A DNA stretch of 21,242 nt, from positions 1 through 21,242 of the IMG/VR virus record IMGVR_UViG_3300042860_002606; one strand, 5' to 3'. A model generated the notes under the pieces. That model was not told where the DNA came from, searched no databases, and saw only the letters and a list, made by a program, of their open reading frames with translations. Below are positions 436 through 21,242 of the stretch, piece after piece. The translations under genes were made by a program, and so were the position numbers. Position 1 is the first letter of the stretch; each line of letters starts with the position of its first letter. Origin of the DNA: a virus.

Positions 436-1938
436 CTAATTTAGTGGAATTTTTATCATTTGATAAGGAAATCCTTCTTCCGAGTATATCTTTACTCGCT
501 CCACAAAATGCTTCAGAGTATGATTTTTTCTAGATTTCCATCTCAAATCATCTGAAATATCATACAATTTTGCTTTTGTTTTCTTTTCACTTTTACGCAA
601 TTGTCTACCAATTGACTGTAGAACTCGTATTCTGCTTTTTGATGGCGAAGCAAAAATAATGTTTTTTAGACTACGAATATTTATGCCGGTAGAAAAGGTT
701 CCATACGAGGCTACAATAATTGCATTATCTTCGTTTTCAGTGATATGGCGAACAGACTCACGATAGTCGGCTTCAGTTTCACCGTGAACAAAAAAGACAG
801 GTCTGCCTTTCGCCCTCTTCTGAATTAATTCATGCAGAGGCTTGCCGTGCTTTTCTACAAATTGAAACAGAACTAAAGTATTGCCTTTGGTGCTTAAAGC
901 AAGATTAGTGATAAACTTGTTACGAAGCGTGTTTGTAACCAAGAATTCAAGTTCGTCTTGATACGATGCTTCTCGCATGGTTTGACAAACTTCGGCAGGA
1001 TAGTTCAAAACAATACAGTCAATGCTGATAGTGGACAGCAGATTACTGTCAATCAGGTCTCGTGTTGTGGTGACTTTCAAGGTTGGGCCAAACAGACCTT
1101 CAATAGCGAGTTTATTGGTTTTAGTTCCATCCAAGGTTCCTGTTAAAGCAATACGATACGGACACTTGGTTAGTTTTGTCATTATAGAAGTTAAAGACTG
1201 CGCCTTGAATAGATGTGCTTCGTCTCCGATTACTACTTCAAACTGGTCGAAGTAAGCCTTAGGCAATTCGTAGATAGATTGCCATGTGGAGATTACTATC
1301 TGTCGTGAGTCCATCTTCTGTTGACCACCAAAGATGGTATGACAGTTTTCTTCCGCATCCCAATCTGTGGTTTTAGAATAGTCTGCAAAATCTGATTTCA
1401 TCTGTGACACTAGTGATATGGTGGGAACCACAATCAAGATTTTTCGGTCTGGTGGTATGATATTCTGATACCATCTGAGCAGCGAGTAAATGATAAGCGA
1501 CTTGCCGCTTGCGGTGGGAGACAACAGCAAAGCCCGCTCACGGTTTACGGCAGCACCAATAGCATCTAACTGATGAGGATGCGGGGTAATAGGCTTACCG
1601 TTCGCTGCAAGTTTCAGAGTGTCTAGAAATTCGACTATTTGTTCAGGAGTGACTTGTGGTGGCTTTTCCGTAAAGCCTTTATCAAGTTCTAGGGTGTAAC
1701 CGCGTTCTTTTGCAAACGCAGCCAGATAGTCCAACAAGCCGATATACAGTAATCCGTTGAACGGAGAAAACAATCGAATCTTACCGTCCCAATAACGATT
1801 CTTGTAAGCAGGTGTAAATTTTGCGTTAGGCACATCGAAAGTGAAATACTCGGCGTAAATGCGAGCATGAACAGTATTAAAGCATGTTGCAGAAATCACA
1901 GACATATCCCCTGTATTTAGGGGTGTCTGTAAAGACAT
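436..1938 (-). CDS. uvsW: UvsW-type recombination helicase
   Basis: This is a superfamily 2 DNA/RNA helicase. In T4, UvsW unwinds R-loops and branched DNA, switches replication from origin-dependent to recombination-dependent, and drives branch migration with UvsX and UvsY. Visible motifs, numbered from ATG 1938, are an N-terminal WDGKIRL substrate-binding region near 50-56, Walker A SPTASGKS at 140-147, the DEAH box at 239-242, TGT at 266-268, and motif VI QSIGRQLR at 441-448. The length of 500 residues matches T4 UvsW. ATG 1938 overlaps the uvsY stop by one base (TAATG) with AAGG upstream, which suggests translational coupling. An upstream ATG-less extension to 1968 only overlaps uvsY. An internal ATG at 1905 gives a start closer to the T4 protein's N-terminus and sits just behind a late-type promoter box, so a shorter late product is possible. 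Function is confident; the exact start is not. Confidence 0.95.
   Translation of the reverse strand: MSLQTPLNTGDMSVISATCFNTVHARIYAEYFTFDVPNAKFTPAYKNRYWDGKIRLFSPFNGLLYIGLLDYLAAFAKERGYTLELDKGFTEKPPQVTPEQIVEFLDTLKLAANGKPITPHPHQLDAIGAAVNRERALLLSPTASGKSLIIYSLLRWYQNIIPPDRKILIVVPTISLVSQMKSDFADYSKTTDWDAEENCHTIFGGQQKMDSRQIVISTWQSIYELPKAYFDQFEVVIGDEAHLFKAQSLTSIMTKLTKCPYRIALTGTLDGTKTNKLAIEGLFGPTLKVTTTRDLIDSNLLSTISIDCIVLNYPAEVCQTMREASYQDELEFLVTNTLRNKFITNLALSTKGNTLVLFQFVEKHGKPLHELIQKRAKGRPVFFVHGETEADYRESVRHITENEDNAIIVASYGTFSTGINIRSLKNIIFASPSKSRIRVLQSIGRQLRKSEKKTKAKLYDISDDLRWKSRKNHTLKHFVERVKIYSEEGFPYQMIKIPLN
1914..1920 (-). promoter_or_regulatory. Late-type promoter box inside the 5' end of uvsW
   Basis: CTAAATA on the coding strand is identical to the box found before five other genes here. 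It lies inside the first codons of uvsW and ends 8 bases before an in-frame ATG at 1905. With T4 late-promoter spacing, transcription would start at about 1908. The box is flanked by an inverted repeat (CCCCT...AGGGG, 1908-1923). In T4, uvsW is known to be a late gene while uvsY is a middle gene, which agrees with a late promoter between them. It could be a chance match within codons. Confidence 0.5.
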
Positions 1939-2375
1939 TACACAACACCTTGAGTAAACTTTCGCCATTCTATGCTGTTACGAATAACCCAATGACGCTG
2001 ATTTATAGCCTTTAGCAAGGACTCAAGGTAATCCGTTTTTTCTTTTTGCAAAGCAATTTTAGCCTGTGCTTCATTCAGGTCAGCATCCGCATCCATATAC
2101 AGGTCGAGGTCTTGACGCATGATACGAATTTGAAAAGGTTCCCAACCTAAAGCAGCCAACTGCTCTTGACTAAGTTTACCTGTCATCCACTCCCACTTGT
2201 TCTTACGCAGCACATTGAAATCTGCGTTCATCTTGCTTAAGACCAACCGCTCGTCGTGAAACAGGTTCAGATACTTGTTATGCAACTGTGGAATTCTAGC
2301 GGACTCATCGCCAAGTTCAGTCTTGTCGATAGGAATATCTCGTTCCACCATTTCACGAATTTGTTCTAGACGCAT
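1938..2375 (-). CDS. uvsY: UvsY recombination mediator
   Basis: UvsY loads the phage recombinase UvsX onto single-stranded DNA covered by gp32, promoting strand exchange and recombination-dependent replication. The 145-residue protein opens with MRLEQIREMVERDIPID, closely following the T4 start (MRLEDLQEELKKDVFID), and is charged and helical throughout, as expected for the T4 protein of 137 residues. That match fixes the start at 2375. No ribosome-binding site precedes this ATG. Instead a sigma70-like promoter ends 6 bases upstream, so the mRNA may be leaderless. The stop codon overlaps the uvsW start by one base. The gene lies 35 bases after the preceding tail-tube-like gene and appears to be the first gene of its own unit. 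Confidence 0.85.
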   Translation of the reverse strand: MRLEQIREMVERDIPIDKTELGDESARIPQLHNKYLNLFHDERLVLSKMNADFNVLRKNKWEWMTGKLSQEQLAALGWEPFQIRIMRQDLDLYMDADADLNEAQAKIALQKEKTDYLESLLKAINQRHWVIRNSIEWRKFTQGVV

Positions 2376-2410: not shown

Positions 2411-2947
2411 TTATAAATCTTCAATAATGTAATCGTTTAGAGTAAATTTTGCTGTTGCTATCAAAGGTTTATTTTCCGTGTCAGAGTAGTTAAATTCAAG
2501 ACCTGACAGTTCTGTAGGAAAAACTCCCTGCATAACTATTCTTTTATATGGGTTTTTTTTGTTAGTGAAGTAGATTAAAACTGCCTCCTCCCATATATCT
2601 TTTACCGGCTTTACTTCGGAAAAATCTTTATAGGGTGTGGCTTCTCTCAACCATTTTAATATTTCATAGTAATTTCTCATAGTTTCATTAACTAAAAAAG
2701 TTACAGTGAAATAGGTTATTCTTGCAGTAGAATTTGGTAATTTGATGTTTGGGCCTAAAGTCGAAGGAATATCTATAGGTTCAGAACCAACTTCATTTAA
2801 AGCAACAGTTTGAACAAAGTAAGAAAATGTTGGAATTTTTTTTATCCCAAAACGAAAGTTTTGAGGTATGCCCAAATTAGTATTGTCTGATGGACGATTG
2901 ATTCCTCCAAGAGGTCTTTCGGGTATTCCATAATCATTTTCACTCAT
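2411..2947 (-). CDS. Tail-tube-like virion protein, paralogue B
   Basis: This 178-residue protein has the layout of the T4 gp19 tail-tube family: an N-terminal strand region (NFRFGIKKIPTFSYFVQTV, about 30-48), a central ITYFTVTFLVNE strand pair followed by MRNYYEILKWL, and a C-terminal VMQGVFPTELSGLEF hairpin ending in alternating hydrophobic strands. It resembles its upstream neighbour throughout, including the shared start NDYGIP and the SD/PSNTNL-type segment, so the two are tandem duplicates. ATG 2947 overlaps the neighbour's stop by 8 bases and has GGAG 7 bases upstream. It probably forms part of the tail tube, tube cap or baseplate tube. In T4-like cyanophages a gene at this place is often labelled gp3 (tail completion); the tube-fold reading is from motif layout only. 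Confidence 0.75.
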   Translation of the reverse strand: MSENDYGIPERPLGGINRPSDNTNLGIPQNFRFGIKKIPTFSYFVQTVALNEVGSEPIDIPSTLGPNIKLPNSTARITYFTVTFLVNETMRNYYEILKWLREATPYKDFSEVKPVKDIWEEAVLIYFTNKKNPYKRIVMQGVFPTELSGLEFNYSDTENKPLIATAKFTLNDYIIEDL

Positions 2948-3488
2948 CGAAAAACTCCATATTATAATATGTGAAAGATAGCGTAGCAGTTGAAATCATG
3001 TTTGTTGCTTCAGTATCTGCGCTGTTTAAAGTTATACCAGAAAGTTTGCTCGGAAATAAGCCACGAAATGTTATTCTGAATTTAGGATTCTTTTTTGCAG
3101 ATAAAACCAATAATTGGCCTTCTTCACTCATCCAATTTCTATAACTTAATGCAGTGTCTTTATCTGTGAAAGTGGTCATTTTTCTAAACCATTCCTGTAG
3201 TTCACTATAATTTTTCAGTTTTTCATCCACCAAATAAGTAAATGATAATTCCCCATGAATAACCTCACTTCCTGGTACTTTTAATGATATGCCTCTGCCT
3301 CGTTTATATACTAGTTCATTACATGTCATACCTGGAATACTAACACTTGTGCAAAAGTAAACAGCATTTGGAACTTTGGGTAAAAAGAATACAAAGTTTG
3401 TTGTGTACGCCAAATTTGTGTTTGACGGCTGACTGTTTGCTGCGCCAGTGGCTATGTAATTTGGTATACCGTAATCGTTTATTGTCAT
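2940..3488 (-). CDS. Tail-tube-like virion protein, paralogue A
   Basis: A 182-residue protein of gp19-like design: NFVFFLPKVPNAVYF near 31-45, SIPGM, then LSFTYLVDEKLKNYSELQEWF, and a C-terminal FRGLFPSKLSGITL hairpin. Comparison with gp19 of this window shows the same order of landmarks (an aromatic/IP strand, a central strand pair with a following helix, and a xFPxxxSG/WPREIQG-type hairpin). The start is fixed by the matching N-terminus of paralogue B (MTINDYGIP against MSENDYGIP). Unlike B it has no ribosome-binding site: a CTAAATA late box ends 5 bases before the ATG. It heads a unit separated from the upstream cassette by a terminator. Likely a virion tube or baseplate-tube component; the precise role is not established. 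Confidence 0.75.
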   Translation of the reverse strand: MTINDYGIPNYIATGAANSQPSNTNLAYTTNFVFFLPKVPNAVYFCTSVSIPGMTCNELVYKRGRGISLKVPGSEVIHGELSFTYLVDEKLKNYSELQEWFRKMTTFTDKDTALSYRNWMSEEGQLLVLSAKKNPKFRITFRGLFPSKLSGITLNSADTEATNMISTATLSFTYYNMEFFDE

Positions 3489-3493
3489 ACTAG

Positions 3494-3500
3494 TATTTAG
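3494..3500 (-). promoter_or_regulatory. Late-type promoter abutting the tail-tube-like gene A
   Basis: CTAAATA on the coding strand, followed by CTAGT and then the ATG at 3488. In T4 late promoters the start of transcription lies about six bases after the box, which here is the A of the ATG. The box is immediately downstream of a rho-independent terminator, so it is well placed to start a new unit. Confidence 0.7.
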
Positions 3501-3505
3501 AAATG

Positions 3506-3530
3506 AAAAAACGGCTCTTAAGAGCCGCCT
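3506..3530 (-). terminator. Rho-independent terminator after the adhesin-like gene
   Basis: The perfect palindrome CGGCTCTTAAGAGCCG (3512-3527) is followed on the coding strand by six T residues (3511-3506). It lies 30 bases after the stop of the 570-residue gene and just before the next promoter. A weaker inverted repeat (TGATTTA...TAAATCA, 3536-3560) covers the stop codon itself. Confidence 0.85.
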
Positions 3531-3557
3531 TTTCTTGATTTAAATTACCCATATAAA

Positions 3558-5270
3558 TCAGGGTAGAGGCAATTCTGTAACATCATCAGGTCTTGTTACA
3601 AACTTATTTGAACTAGAAATTATGTTGTTTAGAGTGTCTACAATAAAGTTCTCTGTCGATACCGCAGTGTTAATGTTCTTGTTGAACATGGCAACCCCTT
3701 CACTCATTCTTATTGTGCTGGTATCATCACCGTAAATACCTCCTAGTATTTGAGTTGTTGCTCCAATTGCGGGCAACAGTCCAAAAGACCAAGAATTTAT
3801 ATTGGGGGCTTCATTCAACAGCAATTCTGAATTATTGTTCATTCTTAATGTGCCAATATCTATAGAACTGATTTGGGCTTCTTTCCAAGCACTAATTTTT
3901 GTTTTTATAACTTTAGCATCAGCGACAACAGCACTTCCCATGAATAAAATGTTTGTTGGAGTCGTTGTTGCGTTTGGATATTGATTTACAATTTCTAGTC
4001 TAGAAATTCTTGAAGAACCCGTATAGCCAAACGCGGTTAATCCAGATATGTTCAAAAAGTTTCCTATGGTCACATTTAGCGAATCGCTAGTTACACCCAA
4101 AGCGTTAGATAAAATCTGAGGAAGAGTGTTTATGGTAACTTTACCGTATTCTGCACCTGTTGGGCCGCCAGTTAAACTATAACCCAAAGCAGCAAGAGAT
4201 TTATCTGAAACTTCTCCTAAAATACTTATAGGATAATTATCTAATCCGACATTTGATGTTGTTGGTTTATGAACATACACGGTATTAATATTAATTTTAC
4301 CTACAGTAGAATTGTTGTCTACAACAAGGTTTGTAAGATTGTTACCCAAATACGAGCCTACCGTGCATCCAACACCATTCCAACCAAAATTTACTTCAGG
4401 ATAGCCATAAAGACCGTAAGATAACGATGTATCATTGTAATCTTGGCGTATTCTAGAAACATCAACAACATTTCGAACGAAAGAATCACTTGGTCTAGAT
4501 TCATTTATGAATTGATTTAAAAATCCTGTTAGGAAAATTTTCGATCTGGTTGTTGACCCGCCATTCCATGAATTGCCAGTTAAAGAAGAACCTTTGATAA
4601 ACAGTCCAACAGGATTTCCAAGACCGTCTACAGCCTTTACAGAATTCAAAAATATTGTTTTATTGTTTGCTCTTGAAGATTCTTCTTTAAATACTCGTGA
4701 CTTAACCTTCAATGATTGATAATGTGGATTGGTCGAATAGTTACCAAAAGTAACACCATATGCTGCACTAGCACCAGTAATTGAACTAGAGGTTACACCC
4801 ATAGAATATAATGAGTTAAGACCACCACCAACAACATTAAACGGATACTTTTGTTCATATCCGTATTCCCATTTAATATTCAGTTCTAATAGCGTATTGT
4901 TTGTAGTTGTTCCTGCATCAAAGGTTAAGCCAGTTGAATTTGCATAACCTCCAGTTGTGCTGCTGCCAGAAAATCCTCCGTATAATAGAGGAGCATTTGC
5001 TGTTGGGCCGAAAGACAAACCACCAACAAAAACTATATCGTTAGTCCCATTAATAGCACCAGGAACTCTTGAAGAAGTTACCCATTCACCACCATTTAAT
5101 GCGTTCCAAGTTTTCCAGTTGCTTGGATGATTCCAGTCGTAAGAATCTTTACTAGATCCAGATGTTACACTTGTTCCCAAGCCACCAACCCACCAGAATT
5201 GGTTTGCATATGAAGAAAAATTAAATTCTACGCTGCTAAGTTTCGGTGCATTTAATGGATTGTTAGGCAT
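3558..5270 (-). CDS. Large Gly/Ser/Asn-rich virion or adhesin-like protein
   Basis: A 570-residue protein, low in Cys, rich in Gly, Ser, Thr and Asn, predicted to be beta-structured. Near the N-terminus it carries the pattern WWVGG (26-30), a Trp-rich stretch with NW (51-52), PG (70-71) and NDIVF (77-81). This resembles the WVGGxGxW...NW...PGxxDxVxF opening of phage fibres and bacterial surface proteins with beta-helix repeats. The rest is a succession of short strands separated by Gly/Asn turns. ATG 5270 has a strong site (AGAGGGG) upstream. The gene has its own late-type promoter and terminator and lies just after gp23, where T4 has head accessory genes such as hoc. It could be a capsid decoration, a fibre or an adhesin; I do not recognise a specific family. 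Its base composition is lower in G+C than gp23 next to it. Confidence 0.85.
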   Translation of the reverse strand: MPNNPLNAPKLSSVEFNFSSYANQFWWVGGLGTSVTSGSSKDSYDWNHPSNWKTWNALNGGEWVTSSRVPGAINGTNDIVFVGGLSFGPTANAPLLYGGFSGSSTTGGYANSTGLTFDAGTTTNNTLLELNIKWEYGYEQKYPFNVVGGGLNSLYSMGVTSSSITGASAAYGVTFGNYSTNPHYQSLKVKSRVFKEESSRANNKTIFLNSVKAVDGLGNPVGLFIKGSSLTGNSWNGGSTTRSKIFLTGFLNQFINESRPSDSFVRNVVDVSRIRQDYNDTSLSYGLYGYPEVNFGWNGVGCTVGSYLGNNLTNLVVDNNSTVGKININTVYVHKPTTSNVGLDNYPISILGEVSDKSLAALGYSLTGGPTGAEYGKVTINTLPQILSNALGVTSDSLNVTIGNFLNISGLTAFGYTGSSRISRLEIVNQYPNATTTPTNILFMGSAVVADAKVIKTKISAWKEAQISSIDIGTLRMNNNSELLLNEAPNINSWSFGLLPAIGATTQILGGIYGDDTSTIRMSEGVAMFNKNINTAVSTENFIVDTLNNIISSSNKFVTRPDDVTELPLP

Positions 5271-5313
5271 TTTACCCCTCTTTAAAGATGCGAATTAACA
5301 ACTTACTGTAGCA

Positions 5314-5320
5314 TATTTAG
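5314..5320 (-). promoter_or_regulatory. Late-type promoter for the adhesin-like gene
   Basis: CTAAATA (followed by T) on the coding strand, between the gp23 terminator and the ATG at 5270. With T4 late spacing the transcript would begin near 5308 and have a leader of about 38 bases that contains the AGAGGGG ribosome-binding site. Confidence 0.7.
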
Positions 5321-5335
5321 GAAAATTGAAAAGTG

Positions 5336-5371
5336 TATTAAAAGAACAACCCCCTCTTTCAAGGGGGTTGT
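5336..5371 (-). terminator. Strong rho-independent terminator after gp23
   Basis: A 10-bp perfect stem, ACAACCCCCT (coding strand) with its partner AGGGGGTTGT, and a 6-base loop occupies 5346-5371. It is followed on the coding strand by TCTTTTAATA. It is 25 bases after the gp23 stop and should end the abundant capsid transcript. Confidence 0.9.
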
Positions 5372-5384
5372 CCGAGTAGAGAGA

Positions 5385-5402
5385 CTTCTGAAGAATCAGA
5401 AG
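5385..5402 (-). other. Inverted repeat covering the gp23 stop codon
   Basis: CTTCTGA (5402-5396 on the coding strand, containing the TGA stop) pairs with TCAGAAG (5391-5385) across a 4-base loop. It sits directly before the main terminator and may form a second hairpin that protects the mRNA end. It could also be incidental. Confidence 0.45.
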
Positions 5403-6799
5403 AGGTTTGTTACCTTGACGATACGATAGTACATGTTGCGACGAACTGTGTCGTCCAAAGTACTGGTCACATTGCCACTCGAATTTAGAACGAATGGGTT
5501 GTGAATCATTCCGTAACGAGTCTTGAAGCCAATCTTTGGCTGGAATGAGTTCTCACCAACTGCACGAACCATTTGTAGCGGAACATATGGGCAGTAGAAG
5601 AGACCAGCATCGTATGGGCTCGAACCCTTATAGCCAACGCAGAAGAACTCGTGAGTTGCTGTCTGTGAAGCGTATGGGTCGATGTAGACGCGGAGACGAC
5701 CGTTGAGAACACCAGCGAAGGTGTTGCCTGTATCGTCAACATTGAGGTTGGTTGAGAGGGCTGGAGCGTAGTCAAGAACGCCTGCCATGCTTAGAGCACT
5801 TGCCACATCTGCCGAGCAGAGAACGAAGTTGCCCTTACCACGACGGGTTTCCTTGGCAATTTGATTGCACTCGCGCTCCATTTGGAAGAGCAGACCCTTG
5901 AACTTCTCGACCGACCAACGACCGTTTGAGTCAACATTCAAGTCGAACACGCCTGTGGTCTGAGTTAGACCAGCGCGAGCACCCAACTTGGCTGACACAT
6001 AGATGCGACGAACGACTTCGCGGTTAATTTCAGCAAGAATTTCACTCGACAAGATGTTGGCGAGTTCGGTTTCAGCGTCAAGACCGTGAATTGCCTTCAA
6101 GTCTTGTGCCAATTCCATTGTGTATTCTGCCTTCAACGCACGGGTCTGAGCAGTCACAGTGGTCTTCTCGATTGAGAATGCCATTTGTGCAAACTGTGAG
6201 CCTGCGGCTTGTGAGCCGTTTGGATAACCAAGCGATTCGCCAGTGTTTGTGCTCATTGCTGTGCCCAAGAATGGATCGCCGTTGGTGTCTAGACCAAAGT
6301 TGCCTGCGGTGAAACCAGCACCGACACCGTTATAGAACGGATCAGTATCGGTTGCTGTTACGCCACCGAAGTTAGCGGTTTGACCTAAACCTACGCCAGT
6401 TAGACCGGTAGCAGCCTTACCTGAGAAGCGGCTGTTGGCTTCTTGGAAGAGTGCTTCATTGCCGAACTGATCGTTGTAACGACTGCGTAGAGCAAAGATA
6501 AGACCAGTTGGGCCACTCATTGGCTGAACGCCGCATACATCGTATGCGATTAGGTTTGGCATAGCGCGGCGAACTAGCGAAATGAGAATTGGGTCCCACT
6601 TAGCAATATTGCCGTTTGCATTGCCTGGAAGATCGGCTGAACTGTTGGCTGGGCCATCTTCGCGTAGATATTGTTGCTGATTCTCTAGAAGAATCGTGGT
6701 TACTGCTTTGCGATATGGATCAGAGATGTCAGGAAGTTCTGAGTGCTCAAGCACTGGCTTCCACTTACTCTGTAAGGCTTCTGAAATAGTAAGTTCCAT
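5396..6799 (-). CDS. 23: gp23 major capsid protein
   Basis: This protein forms the hexamers of the icosahedral head shell with an HK97 fold. The 467 residues begin LTISEALQSKWKPVLEH, then RRAMPNLIAYDVCGVQPMSGPTGLIFALRSRY at about 77-108, a hallmark of T4-type gp23. It is about 50 residues shorter than T4 gp23. T4 gp23 is trimmed by gp21 after an L/I-x-E sequence; candidates here are LLE (37-39) and LRE (45-47), the latter just before a Gly/Asn/Ala linker, implying a short propeptide. The start at 6799 has AGGAG 10 bases upstream. A perfect late promoter precedes the gene and a strong terminator follows it. The coding sequence is richer in G+C than its neighbours, as expected for the most highly translated gene. 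No separate gp24 vertex protein follows, so gp23 may fill that role too. Confidence 0.98.
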   Translation of the reverse strand: MELTISEALQSKWKPVLEHSELPDISDPYRKAVTTILLENQQQYLREDGPANSSADLPGNANGNIAKWDPILISLVRRAMPNLIAYDVCGVQPMSGPTGLIFALRSRYNDQFGNEALFQEANSRFSGKAATGLTGVGLGQTANFGGVTATDTDPFYNGVGAGFTAGNFGLDTNGDPFLGTAMSTNTGESLGYPNGSQAAGSQFAQMAFSIEKTTVTAQTRALKAEYTMELAQDLKAIHGLDAETELANILSSEILAEINREVVRRIYVSAKLGARAGLTQTTGVFDLNVDSNGRWSVEKFKGLLFQMERECNQIAKETRRGKGNFVLCSADVASALSMAGVLDYAPALSTNLNVDDTGNTFAGVLNGRLRVYIDPYASQTATHEFFCVGYKGSSPYDAGLFYCPYVPLQMVRAVGENSFQPKIGFKTRYGMIHNPFVLNSSGNVTSTLDDTVRRNMYYRIVKVTNLF

Positions 6800-10350: not shown

Positions 10351-11856
10351 TTATTGTAGACCGTAAACGCTATTGTCTGGTGCATATAGACCACCATTGC
10401 GTTCTATTTGAATTTGTTTATCCATTTCTTTAATTTGTGCTTCGCTCATGTTCAAAACTTGAGTTCTTATCCAATAGTGAGAATAGTACTTACCTATGTA
10501 TTTCTCAACTTGAGTCAGTTCTTCGTACATGCCCTTTCGGAGTTCTTGATTTTTTAATTCTACGAAATGGCTATCTTTAAGGAAATCAAAAAATATACAT
10601 TCTTTTAATCCTGCCCAATCGTCAGGTTTAATTACATTTTTCATTAAAAGTTGCTTACGCAACAAATCATAAAACAATTCGCTGAACTTATTACGCAATC
10701 TAATTACAAATTTGTTGAATTTAAGTTCATCTCGACTTATTTCTGCTGCTCTACCTAGTTGGAAGCCTTTATCTTGCTCTAAACGAGATACCGGAACATT
10801 TAAAGCCTTATACAGTTTCTTTTGAAAGTACACAACATCTTGTAATTCGCCAAGGTTTTGTGCCCCGCTGAGTGTACTAATTTCAGTACCCTTACTACCT
10901 TCACGACGAGGTAGCCAGTAGTCTTCCAACATGCTCATAAACTTGCGGTCATCGCGGATTTCGCCAGTATTCGCATCGTAAACTAGTTTGTTACGATACT
11001 TACCCATGATGTCCTTTACATACTGTTCTGCCTTAGTCTTTGGTAGCGAACCAACATCTATGTAAAAGATGCGTCGTTCAGGCGCACGGGAGATACGGTA
11101 GATGACCACAGCATCTTCCATCATGCGAAGTTGGTTTAGTGGCTTGATAGCCTTATGTAAATTTCCTACCGTGCGGCGATAACGACTATCAAACAGACCC
11201 GACGAGCAGAATGCAATGGCATCATCATTAATTTTTATTCCTGATGCGTTTCCTCCGGCTCTTGGATTGTCTTTGTTATACACATAGAAGTCTCGATATC
11301 CTGTGATAATTTTTGTTCCATCAGGACGAGTTTCTTTTTCAAATTCACGAATTTTTTGGATGTTTAGCGGGTCAACAAAACGAAGTTCTAAAACTCCTTT
11401 TTCGGGTTTCTTTTCATCAGCAATAATATGAAAATATATTTTTCCATCAACATACCAACGACGAAATACTTCGTAACCTTTGGTTTCGAATTGCATAATA
11501 CGAAGAATGTTTTTAAATTCTTCTTGAATTTTATCTTTAATATTTTCGCTGACAGTCAAATCGCTTGTAAAATAAATTTTTACAGGAGAACGCTTTCCTT
11601 CGCAAACTATCGCTTCGTTTACAACATCATCTATGGCAGTTTCACAAATAGGATCCATAGACATTTCACGATATTTTGCAACTAGTTCATAATCATTACG
11701 AACCGAGCCGTCAAGGTCAACATATTGACCATAGAAGCCGCCTGCTTCAACTGGAATAGCACCATCGTCTGTAGTAGGTACTACAAACGATTTGAGTGCT
11801 TTGAAGTCGCTTTTTTGCTTCTTCGACCGCTCAATTTTTAAGCCGAAGAGTTCCAT
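10351..11856 (-). CDS. 20: gp20 portal protein
   Basis: This protein forms the dodecameric ring at one vertex of the prohead. It starts shell assembly and is the channel through which gp17 drives DNA and to which the neck binds. The 501-residue length is close to T4 gp20 (524). Recognisable stretches are ELVAKYREMSMDPICETAIDDVVNEAIV (57-84), the RRWYVDGKIYFH region (132-143), KPLNQLRMMEDAVVIYRISRAPERRIFYIDVG (238-269), which is the most conserved part of the family, and SGAQNLGELQDVVYF...ALNVPVSRL (330-359). AAGGAG lies 10 bases before ATG 11856. gp19 ends 23 bases upstream. Confidence 0.97.
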   Translation of the reverse strand: MELFGLKIERSKKQKSDFKALKSFVVPTTDDGAIPVEAGGFYGQYVDLDGSVRNDYELVAKYREMSMDPICETAIDDVVNEAIVCEGKRSPVKIYFTSDLTVSENIKDKIQEEFKNILRIMQFETKGYEVFRRWYVDGKIYFHIIADEKKPEKGVLELRFVDPLNIQKIREFEKETRPDGTKIITGYRDFYVYNKDNPRAGGNASGIKINDDAIAFCSSGLFDSRYRRTVGNLHKAIKPLNQLRMMEDAVVIYRISRAPERRIFYIDVGSLPKTKAEQYVKDIMGKYRNKLVYDANTGEIRDDRKFMSMLEDYWLPRREGSKGTEISTLSGAQNLGELQDVVYFQKKLYKALNVPVSRLEQDKGFQLGRAAEISRDELKFNKFVIRLRNKFSELFYDLLRKQLLMKNVIKPDDWAGLKECIFFDFLKDSHFVELKNQELRKGMYEELTQVEKYIGKYYSHYWIRTQVLNMSEAQIKEMDKQIQIERNGGLYAPDNSVYGLQ

Positions 11857-19575: not shown

Positions 19576-21242
19576 TCACAGCGGTATTGGTGGTATGTAA
19601 ACATCGGAAATATCTGTTTCCGACGATCCCTTTTTGTTTGTTGTTGCAAAATATGAAACTTTTCCTCTACCCATATTCCAAATATATCCTGAAAGATTAA
19701 CTGAAGATGGAACATTTAATCCTACCAGTCCATTTCCGTTCTTAAAATATAAATCTCCAGAACTTTGTGTACTAACATTCAAAAATGCCTGAACACTATT
19801 ATTTCCCGAAACTCCTCCAGAACCTCCTACAGCAAATGATGTATGTCCCGTTCCTCCCGTTAACCCTATAGCGCGAGAATCTCCTTCAACAAGCAATTTA
19901 GAAGAGCCGGAGAAAAAGAATCCGCCTTGATATCCGGTAGATAATAAATTAGAAAAACTATCTTTAATAGTTATTTCTGCGTTATTAATTATTCCTATAA
20001 CTCCGTTATTTGCTATGTTTGTAAACTTTACACTATTTGAATTTGCTTCAATATCAATTATTCCATAATTTTTTGCAGATAATCCGTAAAGATTTCCAGT
20101 AATGATCGGATTATTCATAAGGATTATTCCATTTCTATTAGATTCAACAGCGGTTCCGCAGTCTGAAAATATATTGTTTACAGATTCAATTCGACCGTTT
20201 CTAGTTGCGTATAAAGCACTACCGTAATCGGGCCATCCATAGAATGCCATATTTTCGCCAATTCTTACCAAACCAGAACCAGAACTAATAATTGCTTTTG
20301 CGGTTTCTGAAGAAAAGGTTGTTCCCTCAAATGATATTACAAACGGATCGCCTTGTGTTGAAAGACCTAAAGTTAGTTCTCCAGAATTAACCAAGTAACC
20401 GCTGCAATCTGCAAAATTCATTGATACGGTATAAATGTCTACTCGTTGTAAGTTATCTGTAGAAACTCCACCAGTAATATAACCTGAAAATACACTTGAA
20501 CCGCTGATTCCAAACGGAACAGAAGAATTAACAGTAACCTTTCCTGTTTCTACAGAGTTTATTTTATAAATGCCTGCAAGCGATTGTGGTCCTGTTGCGG
20601 ATGCCGTTAGTGTGTGAGAAAAATATTCCGGTCTAATACCAACATAATTTCCTACAGCAACATTAGATGTGTCCATGAATATATCAAGAACCATCGTGTT
20701 TCTTCCTGTACTGCCGTATGCAGTAGAAAGAAGACCCGCAGACAAACCTATGGGTATTTTGTTGAAGAAAGAATCCGAAGAAGCATACATGTTTATTTTA
20801 CAACCATCAACAATATTTGTTTTAGTGTTTGAAAAAACAGTGTTTGGCGTATCTTTAACCAAAACAATATTTGTTTCTTTTGGTGAAGTAAAATAATTTA
20901 AAGTGTCTGTATCTCTAGCAGCATCACATAAGGATATGTAACCACTAGAACCTTTACAATTTCCTGCACAAGGTTCAGATGTTATTCCGATTGCAGAATT
21001 GAAATATCTCTTTAATATCGGAGATTGCCACACAGATTCCAATTCTTCAGTATACCTTACAACACCCCAATCGCTTAAAGAATTTAAAAACACTGAATAT
21101 TGTGTTGGTGAAGTGGAAAGTGTCGAGAAATTGTGTGGGCCAATTGAATCCACATCCGAAACGGGATCTCCTACCGGCGAAACATAAACGGTGGGGAAAA
21201 TATTTCTATAGTCTGCGGCGGTACATCCACAAGAACCAGTTT
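19576..21242 (-). CDS. Large beta-helix-like virion/fibre protein (5' end outside window)
   Basis: The frame is open from the stop at 19576 to the right edge of the window with no ATG at the upstream end, so the N-terminus is missing. A GTG at 21153 is internal, because 29 codons with coding-like composition continue above it. The visible part (about 555 residues) is rich in Gly, Ser, Asn and Thr. Counted from that GTG, residues around 300-400 show short repeating strand-turn units with Asn/Gly turns (NGRIESVNN, NGIILMNNP, YGIIDIEAN, GVIGIINNAEITIKD), the look of a right-handed beta-helix of tail fibres and polysaccharide-binding proteins. Cys are clustered near the N-terminus (SCGC just above the GTG; Cys62, Cys66, Cys76). 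It ends just before the gp13 region, where T4 has gp12 and fibritin, so a fibre, spike or whisker role is likely but not proved. Confidence 0.85.
   Translation of the reverse strand, partial: TGSCGCTAADYRNIFPTVYVSPVGDPVSDVDSIGPHNFSTLSTSPTQYSVFLNSLSDWGVVRYTEELESVWQSPILKRYFNSAIGITSEPCAGNCKGSSGYISLCDAARDTDTLNYFTSPKETNIVLVKDTPNTVFSNTKTNIVDGCKINMYASSDSFFNKIPIGLSAGLLSTAYGSTGRNTMVLDIFMDTSNVAVGNYVGIRPEYFSHTLTASATGPQSLAGIYKINSVETGKVTVNSSVPFGISGSSVFSGYITGGVSTDNLQRVDIYTVSMNFADCSGYLVNSGELTLGLSTQGDPFVISFEGTTFSSETAKAIISSGSGLVRIGENMAFYGWPDYGSALYATRNGRIESVNNIFSDCGTAVESNRNGIILMNNPIITGNLYGLSAKNYGIIDIEANSNSVKFTNIANNGVIGIINNAEITIKDSFSNLLSTGYQGGFFFSGSSKLLVEGDSRAIGLTGGTGHTSFAVGGSGGVSGNNSVQAFLNVSTQSSGDLYFKNGNGLVGLNVPSSVNLSGYIWNMGRGKVSYFATTNKKGSSETDISDVYIPPIPL

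Follow-up and report, generated by a model that had tools for sequence, protein, structure and literature searches.

The sequence analysed here, which we call the window, is an entire IMG/VR virus record, whose 21,242 bp do not make up a whole genome. It carries a T4-like structural cluster, encoded on the minus strand, in which PHROGs assigns gp19, gp23, two tail-tube-like paralogues, uvsY and uvsW. For gp13-gp18 and gp20-gp22 the labels are presumed from T4 gene order and were tested individually only in part. Because the closest gp23 of a cultured phage is only ~61% identical (Pelagibacter and Methylophilales phages), the phage group is regarded as uncultivated. Directly downstream of gp23 lies a gene that we call X, with the following surroundings, all on the minus strand.

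1938..2375, minus: uvsY, the backbone gene that closes the gp23-uvsY interval (PHROG 231, E 3e-41)
2411..2947, minus: tubeB, tail-tube-like paralogue B (PHROG 45, E 9e-19)
2940..3488, minus: tubeA, tail-tube-like paralogue A, downstream neighbour of X in the gp3 position (PHROG 45, E 2e-25)
3486..5285, minus: block exchanged between lineages, from the X ribosome-binding site to the tubeA start codon (window and contig L003 99% identical)
3494..3500, minus: second late-promoter-like box, CTAAATA, ahead of tubeA (sequence)
3505..3534, minus: X intrinsic terminator (13-bp hairpin, -19.2 kcal/mol, z -5.6)
3558..5270, minus: gene X, ATG start, 570 aa, predicted right-handed beta-helix adhesin-like protein (ORF and AlphaFold2 model)
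3666..3878, minus: conserved C-terminal region of X, about residues 465-535, SSIDIGTLRM..SELLL..WSFG..GGI..DDTSTIR.S.G (family alignment)
4941..5201, minus: conserved N-terminal region of X, about residues 24-110, WWVGG..W-N..NW..P..ND.V..PLLYGG.SG (alignment of 24 relatives)
5276..5282, minus: X ribosome-binding site, AGAGGGG (sequence; conserved in contigs L003, L004 and L005)
5314..5320, minus: late-promoter-like box, CTAAATA, 44 nt before the X start (sequence and position)
5344..5373, minus: gp23 intrinsic terminator, the upstream boundary of X (13-bp hairpin, -23.5 kcal/mol, z -5.2)
5396..6799, minus: gp23, major capsid protein, upstream neighbour of X (PHROG 138, E 6e-157; Pfam Gp23)

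The tail-tube-like paralogues form an adjacent pair (2411..3488), while the cultured relatives examined have one gp3/tube-like gene. At the other end of the window, the reading frame of orf525 (19576..21240, minus) is still open. Its C-terminus, DVYIPPIPL, resembles the VYIPPAAIP of an X paralogue in contig L112, the proteins being otherwise dissimilar, and orf525 (19576..21153), tested as an X paralogue, was rejected.

The X transcription unit

The sequence-only reading had described X as a self-contained late unit, and its elements are all present: the 570-aa ORF has its own late box, ribosome-binding site and terminator. Strong terminators do flank the gene on both sides (z -5.2 and -5.6, minus strand); each hairpin has a T run after or overlapping it, and 0 of 200 shuffles folded equally well. 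A hairpin is also present at the position of the X terminator in L003, L004, L005 and L095. Since YTAAATA does not exceed its chance frequency in the window, the weight of the late box comes from its position: [ATC]TAAATA occurs at most 90 nt upstream of 12 of 15 X-family members, not all of them mutually independent, compared with a rate of 3.7% in random windows and none of the 15 on the reverse strand. A late box NATAAATA has been reported for cyanomyovirus S-PM2 (PMC2984593).

The upstream terminator loses its value as the mark of a cassette when other phages are considered. A terminator stands after gp23 in each of 16 other T4-like contigs, accompanied by a TAAATA late box in 15, and the upstream terminator is therefore assigned to gp23. 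What X contributes is one unit of gene, terminator and late box. The reported difference in composition between X and gp23 is genuine (36.9% and 49.9% GC), but it is gp23 that departs from the genome, with a codon-usage z of 16.3, while X is average (z -0.2). A foreign origin of X on compositional grounds was rejected, given this codon usage and a window GC of 37.9%. High expression is the probable cause of the biased codons and high GC of gp23.

The X family and its predicted fold

X has no significant match in Pfam, PHROGs, NCBIfam, PDB sequences or INPHARED, nor do X and 23 relatives have one in Pfam or PHROGs, and INPHARED tblastn with five family members as queries found nothing. Pfam hits to DUF5620 and others (E 0.007-1) fell under cut-offs and were rejected, and a PDB sequence match to beta-lactamase II (E 0.2-0.5) was unconvincing. 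A pattern scan of genome contigs found no family homologue in bacteria. By sequence comparison, X belongs to an undescribed family represented in about a dozen IMG/VR contigs, which profile searches starting from X brought together. Paralogues occur within the same phage in L106 (12033..13973), L112 and L113; L123, L126 and L127 each have two tandem copies, L132 has three in tandem, and L128-L131 and L134 carry further members, the two tandem copies of L135 being the weakest. Family members are mostly self-contained late units, and in nearly all of them a hairpin and T run follow the gene or the tandem array.

The W-G..W-N..NW..P..D.V opening, singled out earlier from the window sequence, is real and constitutes the conserved N-terminus of the family. 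Across 24 relatives its invariant or near-invariant columns are W27, G29, N47, N51, W52, P70, D78, G83, P94, L96, G98 and G99. The family-wide C-terminal signature is FG..GGI..D..TIR, and the middle region is poorly conserved between subfamilies. D78 is the only invariant charged residue among the 24 relatives and no catalytic set is conserved, an observation that favours binding over catalysis, with the proviso that active sites can differ between homologues.

AlphaFold2 with 24 relatives gave a model with pTM 0.75 and mean pLDDT 65.5; a run with nine close homologues (pLDDT 29) was discarded. Aligned with VIA-align, the model matches the AIDA-type autotransporter adhesins TibA (Z 15.5, 256 residues) and Ag43 (Z 15.3), PL6 lyases (Z ~13.5), phi29 gp12 (Z 13.1) and the HK620 and P22 tailspikes (Z 10-12), as well as GH28 enzymes and the tailspikes of 9NA and Acinetobacter phages. 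Z is at least 8 for 74 of 147 compared chains and, among the matches listed, almost all are beta-helices. Foldseek returned nothing significant for the model (best E 0.37 in PDB, 0.11 in BFVD), so that the right-handed parallel beta-helix is a probable rather than proven fold class, assigned from VIA-align as second-look aligner together with predicted secondary structure. A common fold by itself shows no function.

Distribution and allele exchange

X is carried by every contig that has a gp23 at least 88% identical and reads past gp23 (L001-L005, L007, L008, L010, L011, L093 and L095; L001 and L003 contain gp23 only in part). In five sister lineages with gp23 at 70-79% (L013, L014, L128, L131 and L134) there is no X between gp23 and the tail-tube-like gene. 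Three of these, L128, L131 and L134, have a distant X homologue ~3 kb beyond, as a strand-isolated unit of its own, and L129, whose contig view begins after gp23, has the same gene order. This pattern of presence at 88% or more and absence at 70-79% indicates that X is an addition relative to the sisters, yet an old one, fixed in its genus-level group. The earlier claim of an added gene is supported relative to these five lineages. Moron in the strict sense is a poor description of X, which is genus-wide and not sporadic. Judged from these contigs, X is not a recent addition but a genus-wide gene with swapped alleles.

The swapping is seen most directly in L003. Over 3486..5285 this contig differs from the window by 17 substitutions, whereas identity directly outside is ~68-82%; dS between the two is 0.02 in X and 1.85 in tubeA. 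The L003 backbone is nearest to L095 (identity 0.92 at the gp23 3' end, 0.80 in tubeA, 0.81 in tubeB), with X DNA only 0.55 identical, and the L095 allele encodes a protein 45% identical to the X shared by the window and L003. Between L095 and the window the X alleles are 45-49% identical and gp23 94%. Between other lineages, amino acid identity is 68-70% for X, 88-94% for gp23 and ~80% for tubeA. In these alignments X changes faster than its neighbours gp23 and tubeA, and with dN/dS of ~0.15 (0.30 against L095) purifying selection dominates.

Allele replacement at the gene boundaries is the simplest reading of L003, a single 4.3-kb metagenomic contig. Its small size would also suit a chimeric assembly, in which case X need not have moved as a module; so would the fact that L094 stops exactly at the tubeA start and that several contigs end within X, as happens where assemblies branch. 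We consider a chimera improbable. With 17 differences between the two X copies, L003 does not simply consist of the window's reads; sequence common across each junction is ~20 nt or less where comparable, short for an assembler misjoin; and the 45%-identical L095 allele demonstrates strong allelic divergence independently. On the evidence of these comparisons X behaves as an exchangeable module, although exchange is not unique to it, because tubeA and gp23 recombine in the genus too.

Two contigs from one sample, L007 (70.9 kb, at its end) and L009 (119 kb, at its start), have their breaks within X or directly behind it, and their overlap there is only 96.9% identical, which suggests coexisting X variants. 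An enrichment of contig ends inside X was also considered as a sign of variation and judged weak for short contigs.

In T4-like marine phages the interval from gp23 to the gp3-like gene, which X occupies here, holds variable insertions: a 2OG-Fe(II) oxygenase in P-SSM2, L038 and L071, a PnrA-like binding protein in L061 and a methyltransferase in L092. A fatty-acid desaturase and a GNAT acetyltransferase lie between gp23 and the tube-like gene in L047 (7498..9937), and homing-endonuclease-like genes adjoin gp23 in L056 (4014..4705), L065 (2058..3407) and L087 (2737..4239); the latter are a possible driver of recombination in the interval. Whereas those insertions encode enzymes or a binding protein or are mobile genes, X is a probable structural adhesin and fixed in its genus.

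Small genes accompany X-family members in L120 (10026..10541 and 10534..11088; a contig matching the window), L106, L123 (5168..5833), L129 (9759..10304), L131 (10268..10960) and L135 (3157..3651). Several begin like a signal peptide and, after a Pro-rich turn, end in a hydrophobic stretch with an Arg/Lys cluster; tails such as VPAPASAAILICSAISARRRRTHQ and APAPGAIALLGMAGLIGRRRR resemble PEP-CTERM/exosortase sorting signals, with NCBIfam matches under cut-off. Such sequences could be a hint to the host; a pattern scan of genome contigs found no relatives of a sorting-signal protein located next to the family members of L123 and L129. A GDP-mannose 4,6-dehydratase and a GDP-fucose-synthase-like gene lie on the opposite strand directly after the family member in L128 (6554..8483), L129 (5466..7395) and L131 (6919..7950), and the dehydratase of L128 matches TIGR01472 above cut-off.

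A probable role for X

We infer that X is a late-made beta-helix adhesin of the virion surface with a Hoc-like role, at a probability of roughly 60%. The earlier suggestion of an adhesin-like surface protein gains support from the predicted model and its resemblance to TibA, Ag43 and phage tailspikes. X would be transcribed from its own late promoter once gp23 transcription stops and made in the cytoplasm, with no recognisable signal peptide. Predicted to fold as one right-handed parallel beta-helix, conserved towards both ends and changing faster in between, the protein would be incorporated into the virion as an accessory adhesin and play the part that Hoc plays on T4 heads. There it may bind carbohydrate or another surface structure on the host or in the host's surroundings. 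Since a conserved ribosome-binding site opens the unit and a terminator closes it, whole X alleles would pass between related phages by homologous recombination and leave gp23 and the tail-tube-like genes undisturbed.

The positional comparison starts from T4, where hoc is flanked by gene 24 and uvsW; binding at the centre of gp23 hexamers is a trait of the Hoc family. X resembles Hoc as an accessory gene near gp23 and uvsW/uvsY whose product is a proposed surface adhesin with a variable exposed part. It differs in its predicted beta-helix, where Hoc has Ig-like domains and a C-terminal capsid-binding domain; no sequence similarity to Hoc was found for it, and its capsid binding is only putative. 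By this analogy X would be Hoc-like in working but outside the Hoc family. Hoc and similar decoration proteins promote attachment to cell surfaces via carbohydrates (PMC7602432) and are variable in the part they expose (PMC10385173); a surface-adhesin role has been proposed for Hoc (PMC10385173, PMC7602432). TibA and Ag43 share with X the predicted helix (Z ~15 over ~255 residues) at ~9-11% identity; they are passenger domains that bacteria export, whereas neither a signal peptide nor a translocator domain is apparent in X.

A tail location is the main rival to a head adhesin: X might be a receptor-binding tailspike or tail fibre on the baseplate or neck, possibly polysaccharide-degrading, encoded outside the usual tail-fibre cluster. 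The beta-helix body is shared with phi29 gp12 and the P22 and HK620 tailspikes (Z 10-13), and the wider matches include PL6/GH28 enzymes and the tailspikes of 9NA and Acinetobacter phages. Swapped alleles are what one expects of host-recognition proteins such as tailspikes and are typical of receptor-binding proteins, and two tail-tube-like genes come after X. Yet in X we see neither the adaptor domain nor the conserved catalytic residues of those proteins: Pfam and PHROGs recognise no tailspike adaptor region, and no acidic or other catalytic set is conserved across 24 relatives. The gene sits between gp23 and the tail-tube-like genes, unlike those of phage tailspikes and appendages, with no annotated tail-fibre gene or chaperone adjoining it, and in other T4-like marine phages the host-recognition genes form a separate cluster between VrlC and gp14 (PMC7029224). 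We regard a tail protein as possible but doubtful.

The exosortase-like tails on proteins near several family members could instead mean that X is a non-virion late protein partnered by these neighbours, for example a coat or aggregator of cells or debris released at lysis. This seems unlikely, as X has no apparent signal peptide, its late box sits inside the structural cluster, and the sorting-signal matches fall under curated cut-offs. Least probable is a true moron, a foreign gene of recent acquisition with its own promoter and terminator. The putative late box, the terminator and the absence of X between gp23 and tubeA in sister lineages fit that description; against it stand homologues near gp23 in sister lineages and a promoter box of phage late type, not host type, and genus-wide presence and average codon usage largely refute it on sequence grounds.

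Our best reading overall is thus an undescribed beta-helix family with a role of known kind. A bolder and distinctly tentative extension is that these virion adhesins are encoded in self-contained late cassettes that can be amplified in tandem and often lie close to capsid genes. Their alleles would move among T4-like phages and take over from Hoc-type decoration of the head, perhaps where the host bacteria display exosortase-sorted surface proteins. An uncharacterised protein family of uncultivated T4-like phages in any event gains a probable fold, a transcription unit of described anatomy and a natural example of allele swapping. Should X prove to be an adhesin of the head, a beta-helix would do in T4-like phages outside enterobacteria what Ig domains do in Hoc, and the interval between gp23 and gp3 would serve as a docking site where surface modules can be exchanged.
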